DNA of 33,409 nucleotides, taken from the NCBI GenBank assembly GCA_013306675.1, contig JABLUY010000324.1, forward strand, positions 1-33,409. The letters are read 5' to 3'. This document shows, one piece after another, positions 17,880-25,323 of the stretch (position 1 is the first letter of the stretch; every line of letters begins with the position of its first letter). The DNA comes from Thraustochytrium sp. TN22 (taxonomy: Eukaryota > Sar > Bigyra > Thraustochytrida > Thraustochytriidae). The position numbers were made by a program, and so were the translations under genes. The notes under the pieces are model-generated. The model worked only from the letters and a program-made list of their open reading frames with translations, was not told the origin of the DNA and did no database searches.

Positions 17880-17930
17880 GTACACTGGGACTGAGTTGGA
17901 GCAAACAGTACACTGGGACTGAGTGAGAGC
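17880..17930. repeat. Direct repeat of TACACTGGGACTGAGT
   Basis: Two perfect 16-bp copies, 28 bp apart start to start, lie just beyond the 3' end of the receptor gene in the 227-bp convergent gap. This could be a small tandem duplication in the 3' UTR. Confidence 0.9.
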
Positions 17931-17940
17931 GCGGGCAAAC

Positions 17941-20900
17941 TTAGAGCGCAAACGGGTCCTCCACGGAGCGGCCAAAGCTCACGGAAGCCTCGTTCACGCC
18001 TGAGCCAGTAGCAGACACAAACGGGTTGCTGCCACCTCCCGAAAGGGCGCCCGGGTCGCTCATTTCGTCATCCGAGACCTCGGACTTGCCGTCATTCCCC
18101 TTGTCCCAGCCTTGCGAGTAGCGAATGATGAGCTTGGGCACGAAGATGAGCAGGATGGTGCCTGCTGAGGTGACGAAGATGATGAAGACTTGAAGGATAA
18201 AGGTCACCGTCGGGTCCGTACCGGTGGAGAAAAACACCGGGATGGAGATGGCCAGCACCTCAAAGGCAGCAATCACGGCAATCGTGATGTAGCGGCCCTC
18301 GTTGAACTCGGACGGGATGTTGCGCGAACGAAAGCTGAGGAGGAGGCCATAGGCAAGCGAGAGGCCGCACACGGCGATGATGGGCGCCGCAAAGAGCAGG
18401 GCTTGGTCTGCGCGGCAGACGCCGTAGGACTCAATGACGTTGCCTTCGGAGTCGGTCTTGACGATGAGGCGCTCGTACCTGAGCGGGTCATTGACCCACC
18501 AGACGGCGAAAAGAATCGCGACGACGGCGAAGAGCCCGACTTGGTAGAAGCGCAGCTTGTTGTTGGTGATGTACACCATACGGAGGCGGTCGTCGTTGAA
18601 AACGCGGATCTGGCGCCAGGTCTTGAGCCAGAGAGACGAGTAGATGATTGCGAAGCCCGCTGCGTACAGCGCCGGCGCGATGTTGCAGGCGAGGTTCAGC
18701 ATTGGGCTTGAGGTGGCGGTGCCGGCGTCCGAGAGGTCAAAGATGACCGCATCGCTCTCGTCCGCTAGGTCCACAGCGTCGAGCGGGTCGGGGCCCACGA
18801 AGCCATCGTCCTGGAAGCCGAGGGGGATGATGGCAGATAGCGCGACGATGCCGCCGATGAGGATCTGCTGCAAAAAGGGCGGCGACGAGACGAGCAGCAG
18901 GCGCTTGTCCTTGTTGACCTGCACCCAGATCATCATGGCTACGCAAAAGATGATGGCGAGCGAGGTCAGGATGTACGCGAAGTAGATGAAGCCCGTAGGC
19001 ACCACTTGGGTATCCTCGTTCGGCGTCAGGATGGACGTCTCGCCGCAGCGAATGGACGCCAGGATGTCAAAGAGGTCCTCCTCGACGAGGGTGCCTGAGT
19101 TCAGGTTGTACAGCGCCACGGCGCCCTCTGCGTCCAGTGGCGTGCCCTCTAGGCTGCCGGTGGTCGACTGTCCCAGCACACGGTCGATGAGATCTTGGTA
19201 CAGGAAGCCAATGAAGTACGTGTTTTTCGTGCCGTAGTCCTTGCCTGTCTCGTTGCAGCCGCCGTTCGCTGTGTCCGAAAAGGTCTGGCGAGCGACAACT
19301 TCGATTGTCTCAGTGAGTGGGTAGCAGCCCGCGGCCGACGCATCGCCGTTGTACGCGTGCGTGACCTTGTCATAGGCGGTTGTTCCGTCGAAGCACGCTT
19401 GAATGGAGCTTGTTGACGGCTCGACGTGGTCGCCGGTAGCGTCGACGAGTCTGGCGAAAGCCGTCTCGCCCGGGGTGTTGCCAAGGACCGGCAGATAGCC
19501 GATGCTGTAGAGAGTCGAAACGATGGCACTCTTTTGCGCGTCCAAGGTCTCGACGCAAATGACGCGGCCGGCAAGCGCCGGTTCGGTCGTCGGCTCGCCG
19601 TTCGGGCAAAGGTACGCGGCGAGCGAGTTGTCCCCGAGCACGGAGCTGGCGGCGCCTGTCGCCTTGAGCTGGCTTACGAAGGACCGCTCAAGCTCGTCAG
19701 AAGCCTCGACCACCACGAGGGTGATATCCTCGGCGGGCAGAAGAACGCCTGAGTTGGTGCTTTGGATGCGACTGTCGTCCCATGAGGAGATGGACCCGTC
19801 CAGGATGGACAGCAGAGTCTGAAAGCTCAGCTTGAGGCCGCCGTCAGCAGTGACAGCGCAGTCTGCGGCCGCAATATCGGCCTCGGTCGCGCCACAGAAG
19901 TTCATGAGCGCACCCAGGCCGAGCGCGGCGTACGGGACGCTAATCATTGCATTTCCGTTGGCACATGCAATGTCTGTGGCGCGCAGAGAGCCGAGCACGA
20001 AGGCGATGCCTTCCGAGCAGGCGGCCGCCTCGGCGTCTTCCGTGTCGAGGCTCTCGAAGGCCTCAAAGTCGACGGAGGTCCGCTCCGCCTGGTAGACGAG
20101 CTGGTACTGGCCAAGAATCTTCTCCAAGGAGGCCGCGCCGAAGTAGGAGACCAGCGTGCCGTCCGTGTCGGGCGCCACGTAGACCTCGTTGCCGTCGTAA
20201 AGCAGGTCGCCGCGCAGGCGCTCGAGCACGAGGTCCCGGATGAGCTCCGGCAGCGGCGCAAAGCCAAGTGCCGTAGCCATCGCGCGCGGCACCTCGTTGC
20301 CGTAGAACCATTCGAGGAAATCAAGCAGAGCTTGGCGGTTTGCCAGCGTGGCGCCCTCGCGCACATAGGTCTTGCGCAACACGAAGTACGTGTAGCCCAC
20401 AATGGGCCACGCCTGCGAGCCGCGTGCGTTGCTGATGGTGACCGTGAGCCGCTCCTCGAGCGTCTCATTGCCGCCAAAGTCGAGGCCCTTCTCCACGAGC
20501 GCGTTCGACACCGAGGTGGCGCCCGCCTTGACGGCCGAGCTGCTGCCCTCGGCGCGCAGGCTCGCGAACGAGATGCCGATGGCCTCGGCCTCGCCAAGAA
20601 CCGAGTAGCCAATGGCGCCAGCGTTTGACCCCACGAAACCGGCCACGCCTTCGTTCCCCTGGCGCTTCGCCAAAAATCCTAGGTTGCCAAAGTTGAGCTC
20701 GTAGTCGGTGTTGCTGGAGGAGCTGCCAAACCCTGTCGCATAGTCGTCATTCGCCAGACTCAGCGCCGTCTTGAAGATCTCGCTCGTACCGGAACCGTCC
20801 TCGCGTACCACCACGGTGATGGTGCCCGCATTTGCGAGCGCCGTGGTGATGAGTGCCGCCTTGGCAGCGCCCACGCCATCCGTGTTGAGCGCGACGATCT

Positions 20901-21447
20901 CAGCGTTGTCCCAGCTGGTAATGTTGCCCATGAAGATCTTGGCTAGCACGTCCATGTTGAGCACCAGCTCCTCGTCGTCATCCAACACTGACGAGAGGTC
21001 CGGCAGATTGTAAATGGGCACCACGGCGCCAGCCACGGACGGGTACATTTGCACGTCGCTGTAGCCTGTGTACATGGCGTCGCTCAGAACCGAATCGGAC
21101 CCGGCAAAGTCAAGGATGACGGGCGTCGCCTCGTCCGAGTCGTTGCACTCCGTCACGCCCGTGTCCGCCGCGAAGTAGTCCAAGATCCGGCATTTCCCGC
21201 TCGTCGAGCCCATGCCGGTGTACGACACGTACACCTCGGACGCCACAAAGCGGTACGCAAAGATGGCTTGTTCATACAGCCGCTCCGGAAAGGTGGCGCC
21301 GGCACCGCGCACCACGACGCGGCCATCGGCCGTCGTGCTCACGCGCTCGCCCTCCACGTCCGCTGACGCGAGCTTGCCGGCCGCCTCGGTTGTTATCAGC
21401 GCCGCCAGCGTCGCCGCCAGCAGCGTGGTGGCCGCTGCCGTGCGCAT
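17941..21447 (-). CDS. Class C GPCR with tandem PstS-like ectodomains, 1168 aa
   Basis: Signal peptide at 1-24, then two periplasmic phosphate-binding-protein-like domains (PBP-like, PstS type), then a 7TM_3 core. Domain 1 (about 44-405) keeps the PstS ligand loops: GAGATFP with Thr52, GMGSTSG with Ser81, DFAGSDSVL with Asp118, and REDGSGTSEIF with Arg215, Ser219, Gly220 and Thr221. It also has AWPIVGYTYFVLRK and ALGFAPLP. Domain 2 (about 447-770) keeps the fold landmarks (ILDGSISSWDD, SIGYLPV) but has EASDELE where RxDGSGT should be, so it probably does not bind phosphate the same way. Seven helices lie at about 819-1105. Class C hallmarks are Cys921 at TM3 and Cys1011 in ECL2, LKTWRQIRVF after TM3, and VPKLIIRY after TM7. 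The closest type is GABA-B-like. It is likely a plasma-membrane sensor coupling phosphate or another oxyanion to G proteins; the ligand is inference. Confidence 0.92.
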   Translation of the reverse strand: MRTAAATTLLAATLAALITTEAAGKLASADVEGERVSTTADGRVVVRGAGATFPERLYEQAIFAYRFVASEVYVSYTGMGSTSGKCRILDYFAADTGVTECNDSDEATPVILDFAGSDSVLSDAMYTGYSDVQMYPSVAGAVVPIYNLPDLSSVLDDDEELVLNMDVLAKIFMGNITSWDNAEIVALNTDGVGAAKAALITTALANAGTITVVVREDGSGTSEIFKTALSLANDDYATGFGSSSSNTDYELNFGNLGFLAKRQGNEGVAGFVGSNAGAIGYSVLGEAEAIGISFASLRAEGSSSAVKAGATSVSNALVEKGLDFGGNETLEERLTVTISNARGSQAWPIVGYTYFVLRKTYVREGATLANRQALLDFLEWFYGNEVPRAMATALGFAPLPELIRDLVLERLRGDLLYDGNEVYVAPDTDGTLVSYFGAASLEKILGQYQLVYQAERTSVDFEAFESLDTEDAEAAACSEGIAFVLGSLRATDIACANGNAMISVPYAALGLGALMNFCGATEADIAAADCAVTADGGLKLSFQTLLSILDGSISSWDDSRIQSTNSGVLLPAEDITLVVVEASDELERSFVSQLKATGAASSVLGDNSLAAYLCPNGEPTTEPALAGRVICVETLDAQKSAIVSTLYSIGYLPVLGNTPGETAFARLVDATGDHVEPSTSSIQACFDGTTAYDKVTHAYNGDASAAGCYPLTETIEVVARQTFSDTANGGCNETGKDYGTKNTYFIGFLYQDLIDRVLGQSTTGSLEGTPLDAEGAVALYNLNSGTLVEEDLFDILASIRCGETSILTPNEDTQVVPTGFIYFAYILTSLAIIFCVAMMIWVQVNKDKRLLLVSSPPFLQQILIGGIVALSAIIPLGFQDDGFVGPDPLDAVDLADESDAVIFDLSDAGTATSSPMLNLACNIAPALYAAGFAIIYSSLWLKTWRQIRVFNDDRLRMVYITNNKLRFYQVGLFAVVAILFAVWWVNDPLRYERLIVKTDSEGNVIESYGVCRADQALLFAAPIIAVCGLSLAYGLLLSFRSRNIPSEFNEGRYITIAVIAAFEVLAISIPVFFSTGTDPTVTFILQVFIIFVTSAGTILLIFVPKLIIRYSQGWDKGNDGKSEVSDDEMSDPGALSGGGSNPFVSATGSGVNEASVSFGRSVEDPFAL

Positions 21448-22512
21448 TCTCTTGCCTGCTTGCTTTGCTTCAGCACGCGAGGGACGACGCCTTGCGTCCC
21501 TTGGCCCGCTCCTGTTGCACCAAATCTGGTTTTGCCGCTGCTAGGGCCTACTGCGCGTGCAGAAACGTAGCGCTGCATCTGCACGTGGCCTCGCGGCGTG
21601 GGGGGGAACTCACAACAGTCAGCGGCTCAAGACGAGTCATCTCATCACAAGTCACGTCACGCCGCGCCGCGCCGCGCCGCGCCGCGCCACGCCACGCCAC
21701 GCCGTGCCACGAATAACGTATACGTCCTCGACTCGGTTAGAGCTGGCCGCCAGTGGCCCGCATGGGCGTGCGCCACTGGGGCGTCATCCCTGCGCCTTCT
21801 GCCAGCGGCGCCTGGCCGGATATCGCGCAACTCGGCCGAAGCCCCTCGCCCGCCGGCGCGTGCCGCGGATAGAAGCAGCGCGGGAACCCATCGAATCTTG
21901 GCCGGGGGGCGCGTGGAGGTACGTGCCAGACCGGGAACCACTGCGGCTGCGTCAGCCTGCGTGCCAGTGGCGTGGCGCTGCATGGCGGCGCTGCATGGCA
22001 CGCCCAGCCTGTGGACCGCGGCCCGCCAGCTGATCCTAGGGTCGATGTGAGCGCGCGCAGCCGCCGCATGGACACTGGCGCAGATCAAGACTCGGTGGCT
22101 CGCTCGCCGACGCGCGACTGATCGCTGGCCAACCGGCCCAGGCTCTGCTGCAGCCAGAGCATCTAGAGCCGCAAGAAGGGTTCCGCTTGCCGGGCCTGGC
22201 GCGGCTGCGCACGCACACCGAGTAGGTGCAGCGGGACGCCTGGCTACCTTGGCGGCGCCTGCGGCGCCCAGCAATTCGCCGCAGGCGCTGCGAGAGGAGG
22301 CGAAAGCAGCGTCGCATCGCCGCGACGCCGTCTTGACTTCGGCTAGCTTGCACCGCGAGCCGTGCGCGCGCCAGAGAAAACGCACTGCCAACAGTCCCGG
22401 GGCCGTGCCGCAGACTGCGCGCGGCGCGACGTGACGTGACCCAGCGCCAGGCGAGGCGGGCGCAAAGACGCAAAGACGCAACGGCGGAAAGGCGCGACGC
22501 GTGCTCGGCATC
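21448..22512. promoter_or_regulatory. Divergent region between receptor and kinase genes
   Basis: Within 1065 bp I find no gene I can support. The region holds a CGCCG/CGCCA pentanucleotide array, an inverted pair CCAGTGGC (21750-21757) and GCCACTGG (21772-21779), and TGCCAGTG at 21962-21969. It is long enough for two separate promoters. Confidence 0.5.
21658..21710. repeat. CGCCG/CGCCA pentanucleotide array
   Basis: About ten GCCGC- and GCCAC-type pentamers in tandem, degenerating at the right end, about 210-260 bp upstream of the receptor ATG. Confidence 0.9.
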
Positions 22513-25323
22513 ATGGCGAGCGACCTGGTCGTGCAGAGCGTGGTGACGATGATTGGCAACCTGCGCAATCGCGTGCAGGGCGTGCTGGTGCTCAAGAACC
22601 AGATGAAGACCCTGGACGAGATGCTGGCCGTCATGGAGCAGGTGCTGAGCGAGCGCGGCAGCGAGGCGGTGAGCGGGCTGAACGAACTTGAGTCGCTGGT
22701 GGGCGAGACAGGCGTGGTCTTGGAGGTCTTCACCTCGGACGGCACGGACCGCGTCGTGCTTAAGTTTATCTCGTTCTGGCACAGCGAGGGCGTGAAGCGC
22801 AAGCTGCACAAGCTGTGCTCGCGAATGGTGAGCGTCTTTCTGGAGCTCTCGGTGCCCATGGACTCGAACGAAATCGACCTGCTCAGCAGCCTGGCCAGCG
22901 AGGAGCAGCAGATGCAGGACGAGCGTGCCGACCGCGCACAGCTGGACGAGGAGCTGCCGCTGCTCTTGGACAGCCTGGAAGCCGTCGCGGACCCGGAGCA
23001 GTTCGGTTACCTCAAGGAGGCGCTGGCTGAGGCGCGCGAGGACGGCGAGTACGCGCTTGGCAATGAGGGCGTCAAGTTCGCCATGGCCAACATCGTGCAC
23101 GTGCTGCAGACGGCTGGCGACGAGGAGGAGATGGCGAACCTGCATGGAAACGACCTCCTCGTGGACATGGAGGCAGAGCTGGGGCGCGGCGGCTTCGGCG
23201 TGGTGTTTCTTGGCCGCTACAAGGACGTGCCGTGCGCCGTCAAGATCATTGACATCGGCGACGACGCGGTCTCGGATGCGGCGCGATCGAACCTGCGAAA
23301 CGAGGTCAAGATCTGGCGCGACCTCAAGCACTCGAACATCGTGGAGTTTTACGGCGCCGCCATCGTGGACCACCGCATGCTTATGGCGCTGGAGCTGTGC
23401 GAGTTCTCGCTGGGCGAGGTCATCCACAAGCAGCACGTGAACTTCAGCAAGAACTTCGACTCGTACTGCGCGATTGCGCGCGGCATCTGCCGCGCCGTGG
23501 CCCATTTGCATGCAAATTTCATCATTCACCGTGACATCAAGCCGAGCAACGTGATGCTGAGCCAGAGCATGCAAATGGTCAAGCTGACGGACTTTGGCAT
23601 GTCACTTGCCAAGGAGGAGATCTACGGCAAGGCCATTACGGCCACCATTCGTGGCACGCCCGTCTACATGGCGCCCGAGGTGTGTTTCCCGCCGGCGCAT
23701 TGGACCTTTCGCGCCGACGTGTACTCGCTGGCCATCCTGCTTTGGGAGATGTTCAATGGCGTGCAGCCCTTCGAGGACGAGGCGAACTCGCTGCACATCA
23801 TGCAGCGCGTCGCCATGAACAACGAGCGGCCGCCGCTGAACGAGGACATGCCGCACTGGCTATGGGAGGTTCTCCAGAGCGCCTGGGACCCTGTCCCAGA
23901 GCGCCGCCCCACGGCCGGCATCTTGCTCGCCACGGTTGACAGACACTCCAAGGACGGCAGTCGCACCAGCATGCGCGCCATTGGCGCCATGCTGGCCAAG
24001 TTGCGCCGACGTCCGGGCCGCCCTCGCGCGTCCACGCTCGCGCGTCGCGCTCCGACGCCGGGCTCCGGCGGAGAGTCCGTGCGCACGCAGCGGGAGTTTA
24101 GTCCGCTGCACTCCGGGTCGGGCGCCGCCCTCGGCGGCCTGGCGCCACCGCCTGGGCTCGACCGCCCGCCTCTGCGCGGCGGCAGCTTCTCGGGCAGTGT
24201 ACTGAGTGCGCCTAGCACGGGCCGCGGCTCCTTTATGAGCGTCCTGCCCGCCGAAGTGGTCGAGCCTCTGGATGGCGTGGACGCGCCGCTTGCGCTGGAG
24301 GTGACCGAGATGGATGACGAGGACGACGGCGTTAACCCCGGCTCACTGGAGTTCTACCACGGCACCGACGAGTCCTCGGGCTCCATCGGTACCGCTTCGG
24401 TCAGCCGCAACTACGGCCAAAAGGCGGACGGCCGCGCCAACCTGCTCGCCATCGGCGGCATGTTTGGCATCGAGCTCTGGGACGCGAAAAAGGGCAAGAA
24501 GGTGCGCAGCCTCGGCGGCCACACCGGCGCTGTCTTCGGCATCGCCTTTTCCGCCGATGGCAGCGTGCTCGTGTCCGCCTCTGGCGACAAGACTGTGCGC
24601 GTCTGGGATGCCTCGCGTTTCCGTCTCTCGTCCACGCTGCGCGGCCACAAGGATGGCGTGCACTGCGTCGCCATCTCCAATAACTCCAACATCATCGCCA
24701 GCGGGTCCGCGGACAAGACCATCAAAATTTGGAACCGCGCCAACTCCGAGGTTGTCTTCTCCTTTACCGGTCACACCGACGCCATCTCCGAAGTCGTCTT
24801 CACCAGCGACGAGACGAAGCTCGTCTCCGCTAGCGCCGACAACACTATCCGCGTCTGGTCGCTGCGGGACACTGGTCTCATCACCACTATCGACACCGGT
24901 AGGCCCATCACGAGCCTTGCGGTCTCCGCAGACGGCCAGCGCGCCGTCGTGGCGCAGGCCTCCAAGGTTATCGCCATCTATTCGATCACCGATGGCATCC
25001 TCACCTCCGAGCTCCGCGCACATTCCACCCATGTCAACTACGTCGCTTGGTCCTCGGAGCCCGGCTCCTATATCGCCTCCGCCTCCAGGGGCGGCTCCGT
25101 GCGCGTCTGGTCCTCCACCGAGCTCACGCAACTGCGCCAGCTCACCGGCCACACCTCGCGCTGCGACTTCGTTCGCTTCAGTCCCAAGAATGGCTTCATG
25201 ATCTCCTGCTCGCGCGACCACACGACGCGCATCTGGAACCTCAACACCGGCAAGGATATCAAGGTCATGCAACACGAGGCCACGCCCCTCTGCGCGACCT
25301 TTTCGCCATTCTTCCTCCACTGA
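22513..25323 (+). CDS. MLKL-like helical bundle, protein kinase and WD40 fusion, 936 aa
   Basis: N-terminal region (1-205) is alpha-helical with the pattern of the MLKL N-terminal/HeLo-like four-helix bundle: a helix containing RNRVQGVLVLKNQMKTLDEM, then LVGETGVVLEVF, then FWHSEGVKRKLHKLCSRM. The kinase domain (about 217-478) looks active: glycine loop GRGGFG (224-229), Lys244 (CAVKII), Glu264, HRDIKPSN (Asp341), DFG (Asp360), APE (387-389). It is tyrosine-kinase-like or mixed-lineage in style. A Ser/Pro-rich linker (about 480-625) follows, then about seven WD40 blades (about 630-936) with repeated GH...D...VRVWD units. It could be a signalling kinase whose propeller senses a partner and whose bundle binds membranes or adaptors; this is inference. 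The frame starts at a GTG at 22501, but the first ATG is 22513. Confidence 0.9.
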   Translation: MASDLVVQSVVTMIGNLRNRVQGVLVLKNQMKTLDEMLAVMEQVLSERGSEAVSGLNELESLVGETGVVLEVFTSDGTDRVVLKFISFWHSEGVKRKLHKLCSRMVSVFLELSVPMDSNEIDLLSSLASEEQQMQDERADRAQLDEELPLLLDSLEAVADPEQFGYLKEALAEAREDGEYALGNEGVKFAMANIVHVLQTAGDEEEMANLHGNDLLVDMEAELGRGGFGVVFLGRYKDVPCAVKIIDIGDDAVSDAARSNLRNEVKIWRDLKHSNIVEFYGAAIVDHRMLMALELCEFSLGEVIHKQHVNFSKNFDSYCAIARGICRAVAHLHANFIIHRDIKPSNVMLSQSMQMVKLTDFGMSLAKEEIYGKAITATIRGTPVYMAPEVCFPPAHWTFRADVYSLAILLWEMFNGVQPFEDEANSLHIMQRVAMNNERPPLNEDMPHWLWEVLQSAWDPVPERRPTAGILLATVDRHSKDGSRTSMRAIGAMLAKLRRRPGRPRASTLARRAPTPGSGGESVRTQREFSPLHSGSGAALGGLAPPPGLDRPPLRGGSFSGSVLSAPSTGRGSFMSVLPAEVVEPLDGVDAPLALEVTEMDDEDDGVNPGSLEFYHGTDESSGSIGTASVSRNYGQKADGRANLLAIGGMFGIELWDAKKGKKVRSLGGHTGAVFGIAFSADGSVLVSASGDKTVRVWDASRFRLSSTLRGHKDGVHCVAISNNSNIIASGSADKTIKIWNRANSEVVFSFTGHTDAISEVVFTSDETKLVSASADNTIRVWSLRDTGLITTIDTGRPITSLAVSADGQRAVVAQASKVIAIYSITDGILTSELRAHSTHVNYVAWSSEPGSYIASASRGGSVRVWSSTELTQLRQLTGHTSRCDFVRFSPKNGFMISCSRDHTTRIWNLNTGKDIKVMQHEATPLCATFSPFFLH

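Follow-up and report, generated by a model that had tools for sequence, protein, structure and literature searches.

A 33,409-nucleotide stretch of DNA from the thraustochytrid Thraustochytrium sp. TN22 (contig JABLUY010000324.1, positions 1 to 33,409, referred to here as the window) was found to carry a gene whose product joins two domains related to the bacterial phosphate-binding protein PstS, D1 and D2, to the seven-transmembrane (7TM) core of a class C G protein-coupled receptor (GPCR). The phosphate contacts of PstS are kept in D1, and D2 appears to be a degenerate copy. We reasoned that this protein and its two paralogs in the same genome form a family of cell-surface class C GPCRs that probably act as direct receptors for extracellular inorganic phosphate.

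One receptor gene and two colinear paralogs

The receptor gene is a single open frame of 1168 codons without an internal stop, located at window positions 17941 to 21447. These are the coordinates given in the original prediction, which had been made from the letters of the sequence, and the gene runs on the minus strand. GC content at codon positions 1, 2, and 3 of the frame is 0.60, 0.46, and 0.82, which is coding-like. Two further full-length copies, 40 to 42% identical to the window copy, were identified on other contigs of the genome (37.9 Mb in 453 contigs), and both are single open frames with the same domain order. Since these full-length paralogs lie on other contigs, two trivial origins of the architecture can be excluded. 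A chance long frame in GC-rich DNA (the window holds 72 frames of at least 150 amino acids [aa]) is ruled out by the in-frame domain matches together with the colinear paralogs, and an assembly chimera is ruled out by the same architecture at three loci on three contigs. A pair of genes split by a stop codon was likewise discarded, since no stop interrupts the frame here or in either paralog.

D1 keeps the phosphate contacts of PstS

When the receptor was scanned with Pfam, PF12849 (PBP_like_2) matched in two stretches, the better of which spans residues 38 to 385 (E value of 7.6e-24, 85.3 bits versus a curated cutoff of 27). The nearest solved sequence to D1 is E. coli PstS (E value of 3.2e-21, residues 47 to 406). 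The NCBIfam PstS model TIGR00975 gave 202 bits (E value of 1.1e-59) for the window receptor, which is 3 bits under the equivalog cutoff of 205, and D1 is thus a PstS-type domain that this cutoff does not class as a PstS protein. These data agree with the PstS-type first domain of the original prediction. The modeling of the ectodomain proposed there succeeded in part: the best structural matches of the predicted model were PstS proteins, several of them phosphate bound, far above molybdate binders, and D2 was modeled poorly, as described below.

At the level of single residues, an alignment showed that in each of the three receptors D1 retains every one of the eight residues with which E. coli PstS contacts phosphate (we take these residues and their E. 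coli positions to be those in Table 1). The pocket is therefore as intact as it was first described, and the named residues (T52, S81, D118, R215, and S219 to T221, together with C921 and C1011 of the membrane core) all stand at the positions assigned to them, as does F53. For comparison, a bacterial PstS alignment was built that took in 49 of the best 80 bacterial loci; 41 of its 49 rows carry the same eight contacts as D1, and the other 8 differ only by a Ser for Thr52. The rows had been retrieved with patterns spanning T52-F53, and their conservation at these two sites is biased because the patterns covered both; the other six contact sites lie outside the patterns. The R-x-D-x-S-G-T motif of the phosphate loop occurs once per receptor, in D1, in all three proteins. 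Asp118, the equivalent of E. coli D56, is presumably the hydrogen-bond acceptor that favors phosphate over sulfate. D1 is also the slowest-diverging part of the receptor (52 to 54% identity between the window copy and the paralogs). The predicted PstS-type pocket strongly indicates a first step in which D1 binds phosphate, and phosphate, named as the ligand by inference in the original prediction, still appears to be the most likely one.

D2 is a degenerate PstS copy

Taken alone, D2 is matched by PF12849 under the cutoff of 27 (E value of 0.028, 14.6 bits). With a profile built from the three paralogous D2 sequences, an hmmsearch of the PDB returned mycobacterial PstS-3 (E value of 6.8e-4), and comparison of the D1 and D2 profiles gave a weak match (probability 69, E value of 4.5e-5). 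When D2 was aligned by hhalign to the 49-sequence bacterial PstS profile, the match extended over 289 columns with a score of 69.7 (E value of 4.6e-9), versus a maximum of 18.8 among 10 column shuffles and of 22.1 among six other ectodomains of the genome used as single sequences. D2 as an unrelated domain was rejected on the basis of this comparison and its controls. An alignment of whole PstS with D2 by MAFFT was set aside, as its first half looked misregistered.

In the hhalign register, which is uncertain outside the loop, D2 of the window receptor keeps 0 of the 8 phosphate contacts, and the stretch aligned to the phosphate loop contains neither the Arg nor the Ser-Gly-Thr. Consistently, the R-x-D-x-S-G-T loop was not found in D2 of any of the three receptors. 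D2 is the fastest-diverging part of the protein, with 31 to 32% identity between the window copy and the paralogs. From these alignments, D2 appears to be a real but weakly detected PstS copy that has degenerated and lost its phosphate loop. The tandem ectodomain that had been predicted is thus upheld as to the PstS type of both domains; it needs amending for the second, which lacks the phosphate loop and, by itself, does not reach the PF12849 cutoff.

A class C 7TM core forms the membrane part

PF00003 (7tm_3) matched residues 824 to 1105 with an E value of 9.1e-35 (121 bits versus a curated cutoff of 33.5). Seven hydrophobic segments (814 to 847, 850 to 881, 916 to 941, 963 to 990, 1009 to 1041, 1050 to 1077, and 1074 to 1110) were located by a simple hydropathy scan in which overlapping stretches were merged by hand. 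The receptor also carries KTW at 942 (end of transmembrane segment 3 [TM3]), PSEFNE at 1045 (intracellular loop 3/TM6), and FVPK at 1102 (TM7), which we take to be class C motifs. These results confirmed the class C core that had been predicted, including its disulfide pair, invariant in the three receptors, and its TM3 and TM7 end motifs.

Among solved 7TM structures, the GABA-B receptor subunit 2 was nearest in a single-sequence search (E value of about 2e-15, residues 912 to 1108) and closest to the three-paralog 7TM profile (E value of 2.5e-26, profile positions 6 to 285), followed by GABA-B1, mGlu, GPR158, and GPR156. Neither ANF_receptor nor NCD3G appeared in the Pfam scan of the receptor up to an E value of 1. 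The protein therefore lies outside the mGlu/CaSR subfamily, for which both domains are the criterion, and it lacks the ANF_receptor flytrap that is the criterion of the GABA-B subfamily, despite a 7TM core closest to GABA-B subunit 2.

Family history and genome context

The genome contains 37 class C (7tm_3) matches over the cutoff. A 7TM tree and an ectodomain Pfam survey covered 18 of 20 class C places, two being dropped for a short frame or one truncated at the edge of the locus. The ectodomains of these 18 receptors are of the PstS type in 3, ANF_receptor in 3, MCP-like PDC in 1, and weakly Cache-like in 8 (1 of the 8 over a Cache cutoff), and 3 have no Pfam ectodomain. In the tree of 18 cores, the three PstS receptors form one clade (99/99), and the fusion thus most simply arose once and was then duplicated. 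The three D1 domains also form one clade (100/100) in a tree of 47 rows, in which no donor is singled out. A tblastn search with D1 gave PstS matches, each at less than 60% identity, in 55 records of plasmids and 64 of phages, and a genome-contig scan to which bacterial and phage PstS were added gave at least 581 relatives among 598 stretches, the best 80 of which are all prokaryote-titled. Candidate signaling partners are plentiful in the genome, with 12 G-alpha matches above 100 bits and 45 matches to RGS (regulator of G protein signaling).

A fourth PstS-like protein stands apart in the D1 tree, on a long branch. It is an 845-aa protein (locus L036, 2501 to 5038, minus strand, contig C434) with Kelch repeats, a PstS-like domain (TIGR00975, 132.8 bits) with an altered phosphate loop, and one C-terminal membrane segment recognized by eye, and it is apparently another membrane-tethered PstS domain.

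Several other class C receptors were noted. A compact one of 521 aa (locus L023, 3267 to 4832, plus strand, contig C7) combines 7tm_3 with a PDC/Cache sensor of the bacterial chemoreceptor type, matched by MCP-like_PDC_1 (E value of 6.5e-20) and by the PDB sensor protein 3lic (E value of 4.9e-14). In the part of a 2025 choanoflagellate survey that bears on this point, the non-metazoan GPCRs among the opisthokonts examined are without a Cache domain (PMC12716839). Eight receptors of about 1045 to 1174 aa with long ectodomains (loci L013 and L015 to L019) form a clade (99/99); these ectodomains gave weak sCache_2/dCache_2 matches, one of which is over the Pfam cutoff. The ectodomain at locus L011 had no PDB match at an E value of 0.1. 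Contig C222 holds 4 of the 20 class C places, and on contig C331 a G-alpha match (66388 to 67389) lies about 2.5 kb from a class C 7TM part (69878 to 70624) on the same strand. The genome also has two matches over the cutoff to PfaD, a component of polyunsaturated fatty acid synthase; taken with the class C genes in single frames, they point to a thraustochytrid.

The features of the receptor gene are collected in Table 1. Directly downstream of its stop codon lie two copies of GTACACTGGGACTGAGT, at window positions 17880 to 17896 and 17908 to 17924. A 940-aa frame at 22501 to 25323 on the plus strand encodes a protein kinase domain (Pkinase, E value of 3.1e-48) and WD40 repeats.

Table 1. Features of the receptor gene (window coordinates)
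Feature	Window positions	Strand	Basis
Whole receptor gene, 1168 aa	17941..21447; ATG at 21447, stop 17941-17943	-	Single frame, codon GC, two colinear paralogs
Probable signal peptide, residues 1-23	21379..21447	-	Hydrophobic stretches within 1-27 (hydropathy scan rather than a signal-peptide predictor)
D1, PstS-type phosphate-binding domain, residues 44-411	20215..21318	-	
Thr52-Phe53 (E. coli T10, F11)	21289..21294	-	Invariant in three receptors; bacterial rows F 49/49, T 41/49, S 8/49
Ser81 (E. coli S38)	21205..21207	-	Three receptors; bacterial rows 49/49
Asp118 (E. coli D56)	21094..21096	-	Three receptors; bacterial rows 49/49
Phosphate loop, Arg215-x-Asp217-x-Ser219-Gly220-Thr221 (E. coli R135..T141)	20785..20805	-	Three receptors and bacterial rows
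D2, predicted degenerate PstS-like domain, residues 413-805, phosphate loop lost	19033..20211	-	hhalign versus bacterial PstS; PstS-3 match; loop loss
Class C 7TM core, residues 811-1114 (Pfam 824-1105)	18106..19017	-	PF00003 and three-paralog profile match to GABA-B subunit 2
Cys921, TM3 end of class C disulfide	18685..18687	-	Invariant in three receptors
Cys1011, extracellular-loop-2 end of class C disulfide	18415..18417	-	Invariant in three receptors
Cytoplasmic tail, residues 1115-1168, poorly conserved	17944..18105	-	Three-receptor alignment

Phosphate sensing and its alternatives

In the mechanism that we propose, D1, with its intact PstS-type pocket, would bind phosphate and close. D2, placed between D1 and the membrane, may serve as a stalk or transducer, standing in for the cysteine-rich domain found in mGlu receptors. 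If the protein works like other class C receptors, D1 closure could be relayed via D2 to the GABA-B-like 7TM cores of a dimer, and the rearranged cores would then activate a heterotrimeric G protein. In the fullest form of the proposal, to which we give an even chance, a captured bacterial PstS was duplicated, one copy staying active as D1 and the other losing its pocket to become the transducer D2, and was coupled to G proteins, yielding a high-affinity orthosteric GPCR for environmental phosphate. Its physiological role may be to follow phosphate status or to assist in foraging.

Several observations weigh against phosphate sensing by this receptor. In addition to the narrow shortfall of the window receptor on TIGR00975, the paralogs score lower still (148.7 and 169.2 bits). 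Changes were found in D1 at 22 of the 63 columns otherwise conserved in PstS, and its affinity or specificity may therefore have shifted. The predicted model of D2 has a predicted local distance difference test (pLDDT) value mostly below 50, and the D2 fold is without structural support because the second structure comparison effectively covered only model residues 15 to 396. Profile scans of viral contigs with D1 and with the 7TM core gave no relatives, nor did a genome-contig scan with the D1 paralogs alone give any outside this genome. In the proposal as a whole, the sequences show the domain order, the homologies, the kept contacts of D1, the lost loop of D2, and the G-alpha and RGS genes of the genome, and we infer phosphate binding, dimerization, the direction of the signal, the cell-surface location, the role of D2, and the physiological role.

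Among the alternatives, it is unlikely, in our judgment, that the PstS-type pocket takes another ligand, such as a phosphate ester, a phosphonate, a polyphosphate end, arsenate, or another oxyanion, and that the physiological signal is something other than inorganic phosphate. Ligand changes do occur among binding proteins, and both the altered columns and the lower TIGR00975 scores of the paralogs fit such a change; however, all eight contacts, Asp and Arg included, are kept in all three receptors, the contact residues of PstS close fully around one small oxyanion, and the structural matches favor PstS over molybdate binders. A luminal sensor reading phosphate in an internal compartment (a vacuole, an acidocalcisome-like organelle, or the secretory pathway) seems quite improbable to us, and nothing decisive against it emerged, although no search for sorting signals was made. 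A signal-peptide-like start would deliver the ectodomain to the lumen as readily as to the outside, there are class C receptors that work within the cell, and each chain of the three receptors carries 4 to 7 N-glycosylation sequons, which are compatible with both locations.

We regard as very unlikely a phosphate uptake protein in which the binding domain gathers phosphate to be carried through the membrane: the part that lies in the membrane is a receptor core with class C motifs, and no permease was found for PstS to feed. PstS requires the PstC/PstA permeases, and a six-frame search of the assembly, which may be incomplete, gave 0 matches to PF00528 (BPD_transp_1, the PstC/PstA-type permease), versus 14/14 control genomes with matches. 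We know of no transport by a class C 7TM core, and the large G-protein toolkit of the genome also counts against this reading. The transporter label does have a precedent, since Rolfe et al., in the passages on the analogous Plasmodiophora fusions, gave them this name because of their homology to binding proteins of prokaryotes (PMC4815078). Hardly credible is a D1 that persists as a structural relic, with its pocket held by fold constraints, phosphate bound permanently or never, and another signal sensed: 41 of the 63 other conserved columns are also kept, so that the pocket is only modestly enriched, and the Kelch-PstS protein has a changed phosphate loop, but the homologous D2 lost this loop in all three receptors while D1 kept 8/8 sites in all three, which indicates selection on the D1 pocket.

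If the phosphate receptor proposed here is real, a free-living marine protist reads external phosphate directly at its surface, a kind of sensing that, to our knowledge, is poorly known in eukaryotic microbes. With a bacterial PstS pocket as its putative binding site, the protein is a concrete and testable candidate whose ligand can be predicted, something that few orphan GPCRs of protists offer. The class C core would then accept a different flytrap family as its ligand sensor, with the degenerate second copy as a possible linker.

Comparison with known systems

Bacterial PstS is a free periplasmic protein that feeds an ATP-binding cassette (ABC) permease. The receptor shares its fold, its eight phosphate contacts, and a strong TIGR00975 score, but its PstS domain is tethered to a 7TM core and present in duplicate, and the genome gave no match to an ABC permease. 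The GABA-B receptor, whose subunit 2 is the closest solved 7TM, likewise has a flytrap without a cysteine-rich domain, and the flytrap of one of its subunits binds no ligand; in contrast to the PstS-type tandem, it carries a single ANF-type amino-acid flytrap per chain. The Dictyostelium Grl receptors also combine class C cores with bacterial-type binding-protein ectodomains, which are BMP or ANF domains instead of PstS in the relevant passages of PMC3251606 and PMC10445921; in those of PMC10445921, PBP_like_2 occurs only among the abbreviations.

The original prediction had regarded a direct GPCR sensor for phosphate as new. This does not hold, since the calcium-sensing receptor, a class C GPCR, has been reported to sense phosphate directly (Centeno et al. 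2019, PMC6795806; restated in PMC8476121). According to the relevant part of PMC6795806, extracellular phosphate affects that receptor directly, as a non-competitive inhibitor that needs R62 in an anion site. In the window receptor, the whole ectodomain is instead of the phosphate-binding-protein type. The novelty of the fusion itself was also overstated. Spizellomyces punctatus SPPG_06488 has PBP_like_2 (PF12849) N-terminal to a Glutamate-family GPCR (Krishnan et al. 2012, PMC3251606), reported as a domain match; ligand, pocket, and tandem are not discussed in the passages of that paper devoted to it. Four PBP_like_2 plus 7tm3 sequences of Plasmodiophora brassicae were predicted to be phosphate transporters (Rolfe et al. 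2016, PMC4815078), and the sections concerned describe them as single coding regions confirmed by transcripts and as unique to P. brassicae. Like the receptor described here, these fusions belong to a SAR protist and combine PBP_like_2 with a class C 7TM, phosphate being the predicted substrate; unlike it, they are read as transporters, and their host is a rhizarian rather than a thraustochytrid stramenopile.

Thus, because Spizellomyces, Plasmodiophora, and the calcium-sensing receptor are in print, neither the PBP_like_2 plus 7tm_3 fusion nor class C phosphate sensing is new. In the open-access literature, we found neither a PstS domain as an orthosteric GPCR sensor nor an active PstS domain paired in tandem with a degenerate one. 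As far as these searches reach, the receptor reading of the fusion and the active-plus-degenerate tandem are new. The receptor reading suggests that the printed transporters of a crop parasite, the Plasmodiophora fusions, would be receptors too.

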